From: Paramuribaculum intestinale
GTDB taxonomy: Bacteria > Bacteroidota > Bacteroidia > Bacteroidales > Muribaculaceae
DNA length: 49,798 nucleotides
Direction: 5' to 3'
NCBI RefSeq assembly: GCF_003024925.1
Contig: NZ_PUED01000002.1
Coordinates: 1 to 49,798, forward strand
In this document: positions 2,834-29,058 of the stretch, piece by piece
How positions within the stretch are numbered: position 1 is the first letter of the stretch
Layout: every line of letters starts with the position of its first letter
Notes under the pieces: generated by a model
Told to the model about the DNA's origin: nothing
What the model saw: only the letters and a program-made list of their open reading frames with translations
The model's database searches: none
Program-made: the position numbers and the translations under genes

Positions 2834-4642
2834 ATGGAAATGCTTGACCGGGCCGAACAACTAAATGAAAAGGTTGCCACGCCTAACCTGCCAAACGAAG
2901 AGCTCCCAGGCAAAACACCGGAGGATGCCGAATGCGCCAGTGAAGAGAACGTCACCCGTGAGTCCCTGCTGAAGACCATTGAAATGATTGTCGCCGACGA
3001 TTCGGAGATTGTCGCCGATGACGTTGCCCGAATCAAGCAACAATTCTATACACTCCACAATGAGCTGACACTCCGCCGTAAAGATGAAGCCGGCGAAGAG
3101 GGCGAAGCATTTACTGACACCGAAGATCCGATCGAAGAACGGTTCAAGGCCGCCCTTGCCGCTATCAAAGAGAAGAAAGCGCGTCAGAGAGCCGAGATAG
3201 AAACACGTCAGGCCGCTAATCTTGACAAAAAGGAAGCCCTGATCAACGAACTTAAAACTCTTGGCGCCGACACTGACAATGTCAACCGTCACTATCAGCG
3301 TATCAAGGAGATACAGAGCGAATTCAAAGAGATCGGCGAGGTACCGCCACAGAATGCCACTGCGCTATGGAAAAACTATCAGGATGCCGTGGAAGCATTC
3401 TACGACCAGTGGAAAGTCAACAAGGAACTCCGCGACTATGACTTCAAGAAAAATCTGGCCGAAAAGCAGCTTCTTCTCGACGAGGCCCGCAAACTGACCG
3501 AAGAGCCTGACGTGATCACAGCATTCCGACGGCTGCAGAGCCTACATGACAAATGGAGAGAGATCGGGCCGGTGGCAAAGGATGTCCGTGAGGAAATATG
3601 GACCTCCTTCAAGGATGCCTCAGCTGAAATAAACAAAAAATATCAGGCACATTTCGAAGAACGTAAAGCACGCGAGCGGGAAAACGAAGAGATCAAGACA
3701 GCCTTGTGCGAACGGATAGAAGCTCTCGACTTCAGCAAGCCCTCGACGTATCAGGAATGGGACGCCATGACCAAGACTATACTTGAGGCACAGGAAGAAT
3801 GGAAAAAGGCCGGATTTGCCCCGCGAAAGACAAACACGGCACTGTTCAACCGCTTCAGGGCACTGTGTGATGACTTCTTCGGACGTAAATCGGAGTTTTT
3901 CAAAAAGACTAAAAACGAATTCGCCGAAAATCTTGCAAAGAAAACGTCATTATGCGAAAAAGCCGAGGTGCTGGCCGAAAGCACCGACTGGAAAAAGACT
4001 ACCGATGCCATTGTAGAACTTCAGAAAGAATGGAAAACGATCGGACCGGTGGCACGTAAACACAGCGATGCGATATGGCGGCGGTTTATCAAGGCATGCG
4101 ACACATTCTTTGACCGCAAGAAAAAGGTCAACGGCGACACACGCCGAGCCGAGCAAGCCAATCTGGCTACCAAACGCGAAATCATCAGCCGCCTGAATGT
4201 CATAGCGTCGGATGAAAACACCACACCGCGCGAACAGGCCATAGCAGAAGTACAGCAACTGCGCAAGCAATGGCAGGAAACCGGTCATGTGCCGTTCAAA
4301 GAGAAAGACAAGCTTCAGGACGCATATCGCGAAGTCGTAGGCACCCTCTTCGACAAGCTCGACATCAAGGAGAACCGCGCACGCATGGCCGACTTCCAGG
4401 CCGGCATAGAAGCGTCGGCCGGCGACTCCGGCAAACTGTCGCGCGAACGCGAACGTCTGGTCAGGGCATGCGAACAGCGCCGTCAGGAGTTGAAAACCTA
4501 TGAGAACAATATGGGCTTTTTCAATTCCAAATCGAAGAACGGCGACTCTATAGTCAGAGAAATGGAACGGAAGATGCAGCATCTCAAAGAAGAGATCGCA
4601 CAGATTTCAGAGAAGATAAAGATCATAGATTCGAATATCTGA
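2834..4642 (+). CDS. DUF349 repeat protein
   Basis: This 602-residue protein is almost entirely helical and charged. After an acidic N-terminal region (about residues 1-90) it has several DUF349 repeats, recognisable by W-containing motifs such as LWKNYQDAVEAFYDQW, LQSLHDKWREIGPV and LQKEWKTIGPVARK. The last 60 residues are a coiled coil. DUF349 proteins are common in Bacteroidetes and Actinobacteria; no reaction is established and I do not assign one. There is no signal peptide, so it should be cytoplasmic. The ATG at 2834 is the first after a good promoter, and a strong hairpin lies 67 nt after the stop, so it is probably monocistronic. Confidence 0.9.
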   Translation: MEMLDRAEQLNEKVATPNLPNEELPGKTPEDAECASEENVTRESLLKTIEMIVADDSEIVADDVARIKQQFYTLHNELTLRRKDEAGEEGEAFTDTEDPIEERFKAALAAIKEKKARQRAEIETRQAANLDKKEALINELKTLGADTDNVNRHYQRIKEIQSEFKEIGEVPPQNATALWKNYQDAVEAFYDQWKVNKELRDYDFKKNLAEKQLLLDEARKLTEEPDVITAFRRLQSLHDKWREIGPVAKDVREEIWTSFKDASAEINKKYQAHFEERKARERENEEIKTALCERIEALDFSKPSTYQEWDAMTKTILEAQEEWKKAGFAPRKTNTALFNRFRALCDDFFGRKSEFFKKTKNEFAENLAKKTSLCEKAEVLAESTDWKKTTDAIVELQKEWKTIGPVARKHSDAIWRRFIKACDTFFDRKKKVNGDTRRAEQANLATKREIISRLNVIASDENTTPREQAIAEVQQLRKQWQETGHVPFKEKDKLQDAYREVVGTLFDKLDIKENRARMADFQAGIEASAGDSGKLSRERERLVRACEQRRQELKTYENNMGFFNSKSKNGDSIVREMERKMQHLKEEIAQISEKIKIIDSNI

Positions 4643-4709
4643 TCCACCACTTCCCTGTCGACCTGGCCGACATTTCGATCTGAAGGTCAGCCCATAATGA
4701 CAAAACATC

Positions 4710-4747
4710 AAGACGCTGTGTCATACAATGATGTGACACAGCGTCTT
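4710..4747. terminator. Hairpin between convergent genes, probable bidirectional terminator
   Basis: A perfect 14-bp stem (4710-4723 with 4734-4747) encloses a 10-nt loop. It lies downstream of the DUF349 gene and downstream of the opposing glycosylphosphotransferase gene. Flanking T or A tracts are short, so termination is inferred from stem strength and position. Confidence 0.65.
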
Positions 4748-4760
4748 ACTATTTCGAACC

Positions 4761-4949
4761 TTAGAGCATGTTTGAATTTAACACGAATAAATATATATGG
4801 ACTTCTTTCTATCCCCTCAAAGGTCTTTTCGGGCGATTTGCGTCAAGCTGCATCGGTCACGATGCCCGCATCGCTCCCTCATCAACTCACGCCAATCTCT
4901 ACGAAAATCCTCTTTAAGTGAATAGACGTGAAATTCAAACATACTCTTA
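4761..4949. repeat. 189-bp near-palindromic intergenic element (copy 1)
   Basis: The ends are 19-bp inverted repeats (4761-4779 and 4931-4949, 17 of 19 matching). The two halves keep imperfect complementarity inward to a central hairpin CGATG-CCCG-CATCG at 4860-4873. The centre is flanked by CGGTCA on the left (4854-4859) and CTCCCTCATCA on the right. The second element at 28890-29058 has the same flanks and layout but a different stem sequence. There is no credible coding capacity; a short open frame across it is not supported. Together with the upstream hairpin it accounts for nearly all of the gene-free stretch 4643-5004. Confidence 0.75.
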
Positions 4950-5004
4950 ATTTTCGACAATGATCCACGTACTGACCGACGGGTAAACACCGCGCACTGA
5001 CGCG

Positions 5005-6402
5005 TCAATAGGCATTGTCATCGCCTTTTAATATATTAAACAATGTGCGGAAAATGATCTTTATATCGAGCAACAGCGACCAGTGTTCGATATACCACAC
5101 ATCGCACTCCACACGCTTCTCCATCTTCCACAGATGGTCGGTTCCACCTCTTAATCCATTGACCTGAGCCCATCCGGTGATACCCGGCTTGACAGTGTGT
5201 CGCATCATATAACGGTCGACCAGATCTCTGTAAACATCGGTATGCGATACCATGTGAGGTCTCGGCCCGACTATAGACATGTCGCCCTTGAGCACATTAA
5301 ACACCTGTGGCAGTTCGTCGAGCGACGTTTTCCGCAGAAAACGCCCCACTGCTGTGACTCTCGGATCGGTCTTGGCCACCGGCGACTCATCGTCCGATGG
5401 ATCATATCGCAAAGTACGGAACTTCAAGCAATTGAACGTGCGGCCTTTGAGTCCGGTGCGCAGCTGGCGATAGAATACCGGGCCAGGCGATGTCAGCTTA
5501 ATAGATATTGCTATGGGTATAAAAAAAACAGGGAACAACACCACTCCGACCAACGACGCCGTTATATCCAGCATCCGTTTCATAAATATATTAAACCGTG
5601 AGGCGAGCGGACTGTTCAAGGGTGTCATGACCGGCAGCCGTCCGATCTCATTGACTGCAAACCCACGGTTGACAAAACGCGTGAGCTGTGGCACGATGTG
5701 AAGCGTCACAGCATTATTGTCGGCCACTTCAATAGACTGGAGAAGCGCCGATTCATTGTCACCGGAAAGAGTGCAAAAAATCTCCTCTACGTCATTGGCT
5801 CTGACAAAGCCGCCCAAATCGCCGACAGGCATTACCGGCAGATCTGGGTCAACCGAACTTACGGCATTGTCGTCGAACACACCCGCTACGACATATCCAT
5901 AACCATCGTTGGCCATCATGTCGTAAAGCCGCAGAGCTGTATCATTCATCCCCACTATCACCACACGACGATGATTGCGTCCGCAACGACGTAGAAACTT
6001 CAGCAGCTGCAACGAAACTACGCAGGCTATCGGAAGCGATATGAACATCAGCGCATAGAACACAGCCAGAGTACTCCATTCCACATAAGGAGCGTCAATC
6101 AGATACAACAACACAACAAAAAAAACAGCATGAACGCCACATGCATTTATGGCACTGCGGGCAGTACGTTCCATTTTAAGCGCGCGCAATTCCTCCGGAC
6201 GTATCAACCGCCATCCAGCAATGATCCATGCAACCGATGCGACGATAATGACTTTGGGTGACATCCACACCCGAGCCTGAGCCATCCCGACCAACAATGA
6301 AGTCAGATAATACGATAACACCGCCATGACTATGGCCATGAACGACAAAGCCGGATTGATCAACCAGCCGTAACGTCTGCCACTATTTAATAATCCGGTC
6401 AT
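5005..6402 (-). CDS. Polyprenyl-phosphate sugar-1-phosphate transferase (WcaJ/exopolysaccharide initiation family)
   Basis: Enzymes of this family start surface polysaccharide synthesis by moving a sugar-1-phosphate from a UDP-sugar to undecaprenyl phosphate at the inner membrane. The 465-residue protein has four N-terminal membrane segments (about residues 15-135), a Rossmann-like CoA-binding_3 domain starting at RVVIVGMNDTA (about 146), a further membrane segment ITASLVGVVLFPVFFIP and the catalytic domain with KRMLDI, SPGPVFYRQ, KFRTL, LDELPQ and GDMSIVGPRP. All signature motifs look intact. No other capsule genes are adjacent, so the polysaccharide and the sugar cannot be named. The stop codon lies close to the palindromic element. 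Confidence 0.9.
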   Translation of the reverse strand: MTGLLNSGRRYGWLINPALSFMAIVMAVLSYYLTSLLVGMAQARVWMSPKVIIVASVAWIIAGWRLIRPEELRALKMERTARSAINACGVHAVFFVVLLYLIDAPYVEWSTLAVFYALMFISLPIACVVSLQLLKFLRRCGRNHRRVVIVGMNDTALRLYDMMANDGYGYVVAGVFDDNAVSSVDPDLPVMPVGDLGGFVRANDVEEIFCTLSGDNESALLQSIEVADNNAVTLHIVPQLTRFVNRGFAVNEIGRLPVMTPLNSPLASRFNIFMKRMLDITASLVGVVLFPVFFIPIAISIKLTSPGPVFYRQLRTGLKGRTFNCLKFRTLRYDPSDDESPVAKTDPRVTAVGRFLRKTSLDELPQVFNVLKGDMSIVGPRPHMVSHTDVYRDLVDRYMMRHTVKPGITGWAQVNGLRGGTDHLWKMEKRVECDVWYIEHWSLLLDIKIIFRTLFNILKGDDNAY

Positions 6403-28889: not shown

Positions 28890-29058
28890 CTAAGAGATTA
28901 TCTAAAATTCATATCACTTTGCTTTTGAGAGTCTTTCCAGCGTCTTTTTGTTTGCTCCCCGGTCATGTAGCTACGGCTACACTCCCTCATCACAAACAAA
29001 AATCCATCTGACAATCCTTCTCAAAATCCGTATTATATAAATTTAGACAATCTCTAAG
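28890..29058. repeat. 169-bp near-palindromic intergenic element (copy 2)
   Basis: Ends 28890-28908 and 29040-29058 are inverted repeats with three differences. The halves stay alignable as reverse complements all the way to the central hairpin TGTAGC-TACG-GCTACA (28966-28981). The centre is flanked by CGGTCA (28960-28965) and CTCCCTCATCA (28982-28992), the same flanks as in the element at 4761-4949. It fills half of the gene-free stretch 28829-29175. Confidence 0.78.

Follow-up and report, generated by a model that had tools for sequence, protein, structure and literature searches.

Evidence for a conserved tandem-G.A hairpin module, probably acting as RNA, in putative IS5-type MITEs of Paramuribaculum intestinale and other Bacteroidales

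Introduction

The order to which the bacterium studied here belongs also includes Porphyromonas gingivalis. The nearest precedents for the elements described below are the IS5-family MITEs of that species (MITE239/293, MITE700, MITEPgRS and BrickBuilt), which, in the accessible part of the source, are likewise non-coding, present in around 10-20 copies and equipped with terminal inverted repeats (TIRs) that match IS5-family insertion sequences (ISs) (PMC4596501). BrickBuilt, compared by description, differs in its GAGACCTTTGCA-type ends and tandem 23-nt repeats, and a conserved tandem-GA core is not described for the P. gingivalis MITEs in the available part of that text (PMC4596501). Correia/NEMIS and ERIC elements, from different hosts, are of the MITE type and have folding transcripts for which RNase III or RNase E effects were reported; a core common to different arms and TIRs is not reported in the accessible part of the source (PMC10969869).

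REP, REPIN and BIME sequences resemble the present elements in being short stem-loops with a tag, in whose stems complementary changes occur, as set out in the available part of the source (PMC3733652). REP/RAYT systems differ from the elements studied here, which have DDE-type ends and target site duplications (TSDs), lengths of 161-183 bp as against 20-40 bp, a tandem G.A core and no RAYT linkage; the REP tag is GTAG or CGTC where GGAG is found here, and REPs are without TIRs and TSDs. Palindromic Bacteroidetes candidates outlined in the accessible part of a further source could be related (PMC8040213).

The window analysed here is the whole stretch of 49,798 nt from Paramuribaculum intestinale (assembly GCF_003024925.1, contig NZ_PUED01000002.1, positions 1 to 49,798, forward strand). 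It contains two elements, A and B, and our overall reading, to which a probability of about 0.7 is assigned, is that they are trans-mobilised MITEs with a probably RNA-level, undescribed end module.

Elements A and B in the window

The features of the two elements are as follows.

4764..4946, folded strand (the GAGGGAG strand) minus: element A, a 183-bp MITE, defined by direct reading and copy search
4761..4763, no strand: left target duplication of element A, TTA, 3 bp, from direct reading and the table of TSDs
4947..4949, no strand: right target duplication of element A, TTA, from direct reading
4764..4779, plus strand: terminal inverted repeat of element A, GAGCATGTTTGAATTT
4931..4946, minus strand: terminal inverted repeat of element A, GAGTATGTTTGAATTT, the 5' end of the folded strand
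4845..4888, minus strand: core hairpin of A, GATGAGGGAG-CGATG-CGGG-CATCG-TGACCGATGC, matched by covariance model R1 with 56.7 bits
28894..29054, folded strand minus: element B, a 161-bp MITE
28891..28893, no strand: left target duplication of element B, TAA, from direct reading
29055..29057, no strand: right target duplication of element B, TAA, from direct reading
28951..28996, minus strand: core hairpin of B, GATGAGGGAG-TGTAGC-CGTA-GCTACA-TGACCGGGGA, matched by R1 with 59.5 bits

On the plus strand element A reads TTA, GAGCATGTTTGAATTT ... AAATTCAAACATACTC, TTA. An earlier, sequence-only reading had described A as a near-palindrome whose 19-bp ends match at 17 of 19 positions; direct reading gave the same figure, the 19 bp including the 3-bp duplication. 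The centre that it gave for A, CGGTCA-CGATG-CCCG-CATCG-CTCCCTCATCA, was likewise found by direct reading, as was the second copy, which has the stem TGTAGC/GCTACA and the same flanks inside TAA duplications. The flanks GAGGGAG and TGACCGA are not loops; they are opposed as a helix with tandem G.A pairs on the minus strand, where the conserved part of both elements lies. Two tandem motifs are present in both window copies, apart from a GG that replaces one GA in B, and the outermost third motif of A is lost (GC for GA). The core of B has a G after CCG where related genomes have A, and in its outer part the core deviates from the ideal in both copies.

Folded as RNA, the minus strand of element A reaches -71.5 kcal/mol vs -43.7 kcal/mol for the plus strand, with z values of -7.3 (0/200 shuffles as good) and -3.8 (1/200). 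The corresponding values for element B are -62.8 vs -36.9 kcal/mol, with z values of -10.0 and -5.8 (0/200 shuffles as good on either strand). The covariance models of Rfam 15 gave no match in the window at the gathering score and only sub-threshold matches (E 0.07-7.2) on elements A and B. A scan of window positions 4600-5050, around element A, found no intrinsic terminator. No clear promoter was found at the element, the matches to the pattern TTTG..TAnnTTTG with one mismatch allowed being scattered and uninformative.

Copies and target duplications in the own genome

The assembly of the own genome comprises 2.87 Mb in 378 contigs. The further copies that the sequence-only reading had expected were found in number: family A occupies 22 places below E 1e-24, of which 13 are near full length, and family B 14 places below 1e-34, of which 10 are; contig ends cut many of the others short. 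The core model gave 35 matches at E 0.01. The stem pairing is retained across the copies by compensatory changes. Both ends could be read in 20 copies (12 of A and 8 of B; L020, with a single shared junction, was excluded), and identical 3-bp flanks, all of them TNA, were present in 15 of these (A 9/12, B 6/8).

In one nested insertion an A copy flanked by TTA at either end interrupts a second A copy, whose two parts align gap-free across the junction. An A copy adjoins a B copy on contig C16 and sits in the end of a B copy on contig C127; on contig C90 A adjoins A. Elements A and B are thus short (161 and 183 bp), non-coding and dispersed, with TIRs and TSDs, and from this sequence anatomy they are almost certainly MITEs of the IS5 type.

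Cognate insertion sequences

ISs that have their ends in common with MITEs were found in related genomes. In genome G092 (a single contig) an 868-bp IS and a 161-bp MITE have a common 13-bp end, GAGATTGTCTAAA, and TNA duplications, and in G501 the end GAAACTGTTTTGAATT is common to an 899-bp IS and a 192-bp MITE. An intact-looking IS in G162, from the genus of the window, has the ends GAGAGTGTTTGAATTT, equal to the end of several family A copies (e.g. L010), and unequal flanks (TAA and TTA); its transposase is of the IS5_3 type, with a 273-aa open frame and a score over the cut-off. The IS5_3 cut-off (NCBIfam NF033580, 110 bits) was passed by five of seven transposases, with 178, 230, 171, 175 and 179 bits; those of L350 and L353 were set aside as matches to IS4-type models (129.8 bits, above the cut-off of 115, and 128.9 bits, below the cut-off of 250, respectively). 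The cognate ISs are like DUF4096-type IS5 ISs in their NF033580 transposase, length of 0.87-0.9 kb, TNA duplications and GAG/GAA...CTC/TTC ends, and presumably belong near the IS427/IS1031-like subgroup, its TNA target included.

Four of the six intact ISs of G092 (a seventh place, L344, is not intact) adjoin a MITE on the 3' side of the transposase. Two of these four composites, L424 and L425, have equal outer TSDs and a different inner junction, which indicates that the IS had moved jointly with the MITE; in the other two pairs all three triplets are equal and hence uninformative. For a wider count 58 loci were scanned for TIR-bounded units, 14 of them giving none at two mismatches per end. 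Matching flanks were found for 36 of 55 units (G092 12/17, G501 11/14, G007 6/10, G003 7/14), the non-matching units including TIR-pattern artefacts, four composite halves and members of the GAAGTGAT family of G007, in which one of five flanks matched and that one was not TNA. The sequence-only reading had proposed a mobile family with a RAYT/IS200-like mover: mobility is borne out by the TNA duplications, the nested insertion and the IS-MITE composites, whereas the ends are those of DDE IS5-family elements and the proposed mover is not supported.

A complete cognate IS was not found in the fragmented assembly of the own genome, where C-terminal transposase fragments with the related end GAAACTGTTTAAATTT lie at two contig ends. 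The PF01609 transposases of this genome (DDE_Tnp_1_3 on C86 and C10, DDE_Tnp_1_assoc on C5, DUF4372 on C344) were considered as partners and rejected, their loci being without matching ends or cores. The IS5-type ISs of G092 and G162 contain no core, so that transposition itself seems not to need it.

Structure and covariation of the core hairpin

Twelve cores aligned without structure gave 94.9% paired cells and a covariation of 0.756, with at most 48.3% and 0.200 for slid pairings. Covariation was also seen with 38 distinct cores. In 61 distinct cores, whose alignment was built by the model and hence leans towards the model structure, both partners varied in 11 of 12 pairs and pairing is kept in 92.9% of cells (31-47% when slid), the covariation score being 0.732 vs at most 0.206 for the slid pairing; 223 cells, which are not independent events, changed on both sides.

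The core helix is continuous: its two GA/GA tandems are separated by one or two standard pairs, and between the second tandem and the variable stem lies a G that mostly faces U. The eight columns of the tandem motifs (GA facing GA) keep their letter in 58-61 of the 61 rows, while the variable pair between the tandems is GC in 42 rows, AU in 15, CG in one and other in three. Column 38 of the alignment holds T in 51 rows, C in 9 and A in one, and faces a near-constant G (59/61). Covarying stem, GA facing GA twice and one or two standard pairs in between together define a double tandem-GA hairpin module, in which the G.A pairs, judged from their sequence, would be sheared. With strong covariation over 61 distinct cores and the strand asymmetry described below, the structure of the central hairpin is very probably under selection, as the sequence-only reading had suggested.

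Two other readings of this region were dropped. An open frame on the minus strand crosses core B and was considered by eye as a peptide; this was discarded because the stems covary in register with the pairing. A hammerhead or kink-turn reading of GAUGA/GAAGA was discarded because the loop is symmetric and GAUGA is there in most family A copies.

Strand asymmetry

Folding of both strands was compared for 25 modules of 120 nt, which are related and not independent. In 25/25 modules the better fold is that of the core strand, by a mean of 17.2 kcal/mol with RNA parameters and of 6.3 kcal/mol (again 25/25) with DNA parameters. When the arms were aligned blindly as DNA, 68 G.U pairs fell on the core strand vs 16 on the other, and by module the lean was one way in 21 cases, the other way in one and tied in three; the p-values of this comparison call for caution because the modules are related, and part of the G.U excess could come from a strand-biased mutation pattern. 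The asymmetry in folding and in G.U pairs speaks for a structure formed by the core strand as a single strand. RNA would be a simpler reading of it than single-stranded DNA, and we consider it probable, on these sequence comparisons, that the hairpin is selected as RNA.

Architecture across relatives

Terminal repeats vary between families and the core is constant. Of 21 modules measured, 18 were compared, those of G161 (66 nt), G326 (69) and G190 (32, its end having been improperly located) being left out. In these 18 the GA core begins 62-67 nt from the 5' end of the element, the distance being 66 nt in 12 of them, whereas the 3' side extends over 65 to >1000 nt. Identity between arms is 43% in register vs 30% when shifted and falls to 21% in some pairs; with this residual homology, the 66-nt spacing is partly a matter of ancestry.

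G007 and G003 contain elements of 322-602 bp with two cores that face inward, and at L288 a transposase remnant lies between two inward cores. In G216 a 1119-bp IS5-type IS has an inward module at both ends (L453), and we know of no described IS5 member with such an arrangement. Its reading frame is interrupted or frameshifted, and in its second copy, L462, one of the two module matches is weak (E 0.022). The left module of this IS appears to end just before the transposase start, as estimated from the position of the first matched transposase residues.

Within the Bacteroidales the elements form part of a single old superfamily, which comprises ISs of the IS5 type as well as MITEs. Covariation and strand asymmetry show that selection acts on the module as a structure of one strand, namely the one read 5' to 3' when going inward from the element end.

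Distribution and gene context

The exact core pattern occurs in 23 of 247 genomes of the family, the own genome included, in part by chance: the reversed pattern gave one match each in two genomes, and at least L129, L138, L142, L143 and L149 read as chance matches. With model R1 at E 0.01, matches were obtained in 20 of the 34 genomes in the genus, counting the own genome, with up to 63 matches per genome. In the order the model matched 8 of 393 genomes (own included) at 0.001, the match in G337 (L285) being GC-rich and probably due to chance, and in the class 2 of 395 at 0.0001, namely the own genome and G501, which is from the same order; absence from the other genomes of order and class is weak evidence because only 15 candidates were scored per genome and weak matches were lost. 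A scan of the whole contig collection with the core pattern gave at least 119 stretches with titles mostly from unrelated phyla and was rejected as chance. Element B had no match in the plasmid or phage collections.

The elements are mostly intergenic. Orientation relative to host genes was counted at 72 loci with a crude ORF caller (five rows flagged INSIDE), three loci without a core match being left out and at least L062, L281 and L298 being anchored on spurious core matches. No preference was found, the upstream gene being co-directed in 30, opposed in 36 and unresolved in 3 of 69 cases, and accordingly no host cis-regulatory role was seen. The chromosome of G092 carries cores in both orientations (7 forward, 9 reverse; origin position not mapped).

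Interpretation

Our preferred account is the following. An IS5-family DDE transposase (DUF4096 and DDE_Tnp_1; NCBIfam transpos_IS5_3) would act in trans on the MITEs, cutting at their GAG...CTC ends and inserting them into TNA with duplication of 3 bp; the enzyme step is suggested by the matching ends, and insertion and duplication are shown by the sequence anatomy. The end module comprises the TIR, about 66 nt of arm and the hairpin core with two tandem G.A/A.G motifs. The position of the left module just before the transposase start in G216 led us to propose an action on transcripts from outside. A transcript entering the element from outside would fold into the hairpin, which in the parent IS, just before the transposase start, would damp externally driven expression, and the MITEs would inherit and keep the module. 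In the fold-back leaders of other ISs (IS10/IS50) the structure of the read-through transcript lowers transposase expression. The likeness to these lies in the presumed job only, and here the module is also kept in gene-less MITEs; such fold-back control of impinging transcripts is accordingly offered as a conjecture that is rather doubtful.

The evidence also bears on other explanations. The elements might be ordinary IS5-type MITEs whose hairpin is a functionless by-product of the palindrome, kept by descent from active masters; MITE anatomy is indeed complete, the arms retain residual homology, orientation to host genes is unbiased, and the transcripts of other bacterial MITEs are described as folding stably in the accessible part of one source (PMC10969869). 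A by-product, however, fits poorly with pairing that is kept in 61 distinct cores through double-changed cells (223, not independent), with fixed GA columns, with preference for the core strand in every module folded and with the same core between different terminal repeats, and we regard this account as unlikely. A similarly low probability is given to a module that works as single-stranded DNA, a strand-specific hairpin in replication or transposition that serves, for instance, in timing or targeting at forks. Tandem G.A pairs are stable in DNA too, DNA parameters prefer the same strand in 25/25 modules, and the core lies at a near-fixed distance from the transposon 5' end; yet the column-38 wobble is kept although G.C occurs there, and G.U is favoured in the arms, which suits RNA better, while the coreless ISs of G092 and G162 make the module seemingly unneeded for the chemistry, and core orientations in G092 are mixed (origin not mapped).

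A regulatory RNA or 3'-end element in the service of the host (a terminator, a processing site or a protein sponge), which transposition would have spread and the host then retained, would agree with the mostly intergenic location, the strongly conserved structure and the up to 63 core matches per genome, but lack of orientation bias relative to neighbouring genes, patchy presence (20/34 genomes of the genus) and lack of a U-tract terminator in the scan at element A make it slightly less likely still. The sequence-only reading had pointed to REP-like repeats moved by a RAYT (Y1) transposase, which here would recognise a GGAG-tagged hairpin. With GGGAG directly 5' of its short stem the hairpin is reminiscent of tagged REP stem-loops, the stems of REPs are likewise reported to contain GT pairs in the available part of the source (PMC3733652), and a second repeat class with the same core occurs in head-to-tail arrays (L290). 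Against these resemblances stand the TIRs and TNA duplications of the window elements and the outcome of a Y1 search in 15 genomes, 11 of which gave 24 matches (21 of them over the cut-off and one of them in the own genome): except for one match at a chance-level E of 0.78, no core lay within about 1.5 kb of any of the 24 Y1_Tnp matches, or within the shorter stretch available where a contig ended sooner on one side, and G452, G206, G216 and G161 have cores and no Y1_Tnp match at E 0.01. A RAYT origin is thus very improbable.

We therefore return to trans-mobilised MITEs with an end module that probably acts as RNA. By a literature search and Rfam the module is probably undescribed. As to its biochemical job, which we infer from sequence comparison, a broader proposal is put forward tentatively, at somewhat below even odds: IS5-type transposons of Bacteroidales may carry an undescribed RNA module (two sheared tandem G.A motifs about 66 nt from the end, facing inward, at one or both ends) that would be bound by a specific factor and control incoming RNA, and whose portable part would also have been taken up by a second, non-IS5 palindrome class. 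Bacterial MITEs are usually seen as leftover ends; here, diverse MITEs and ISs with different TIRs, and with some arm pairs near chance identity, keep one non-Watson-Crick module with compensatory evolution. It thereby becomes testable whether the end of a DDE transposon has a function as RNA (or single-stranded DNA), with the help of a covariance model, which gives as many as 63 matches in a genome, and of a natural experiment in which the same core occurs with different ends, with one or two modules, and with and without a transposase.

Further observations

In family B the five nucleotides after TGACCG (28955-28959, minus strand), which lie in the 3' side of the G.A region, are highly variable among copies whose identity to the window copy is otherwise 95-99%. 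The variants are GGGAG, AGGGG, AAGAA, TGGAG, AGGAA, GGAAG, AAGAG and AGGAG, mostly A/G exchanges; relaxed pairing, gene conversion or a local mutation process could account for them.

Ends and interior seem to have been exchanged between families in G231 and G634, where family A-like closing arms are found with GAAACTGTTTAAATTT-type ends (L390, L391, L408). A viral contig, IMGVR_UViG_3300014964_000198 (L489), ends in 27 residues identical to the C-terminus of the G092 IS5 transposase; beyond this single locus no transposase locus was found in the viral contigs.

The second class of palindromes with the same core (L148, L150, L151:2126-2164, L283 and L290) is roughly 110-140 bp long and has ends like GTCAGAAYGG ... 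CCRTTATSAC, TNA ends not being seen. In G452 these palindromes are arranged head-to-tail with a spacing of about 138 bp.

End pairs of family A alone, at C17:8432-8469 (38 bp) and C113:21607-21669 (63 bp), are internally deleted remnants; on C17 the end of an IS5-type IS follows directly after the A remnant, across TAA. A perfect 14-bp hairpin, AAGACGCTGTGTCA / TGACACAGCGTCTT, lies shortly before element A (window 4710-4747), and a similar hairpin, GCGCTGTGTCA / TGACACAGCGC, adjoins the A remnant in contig C17.
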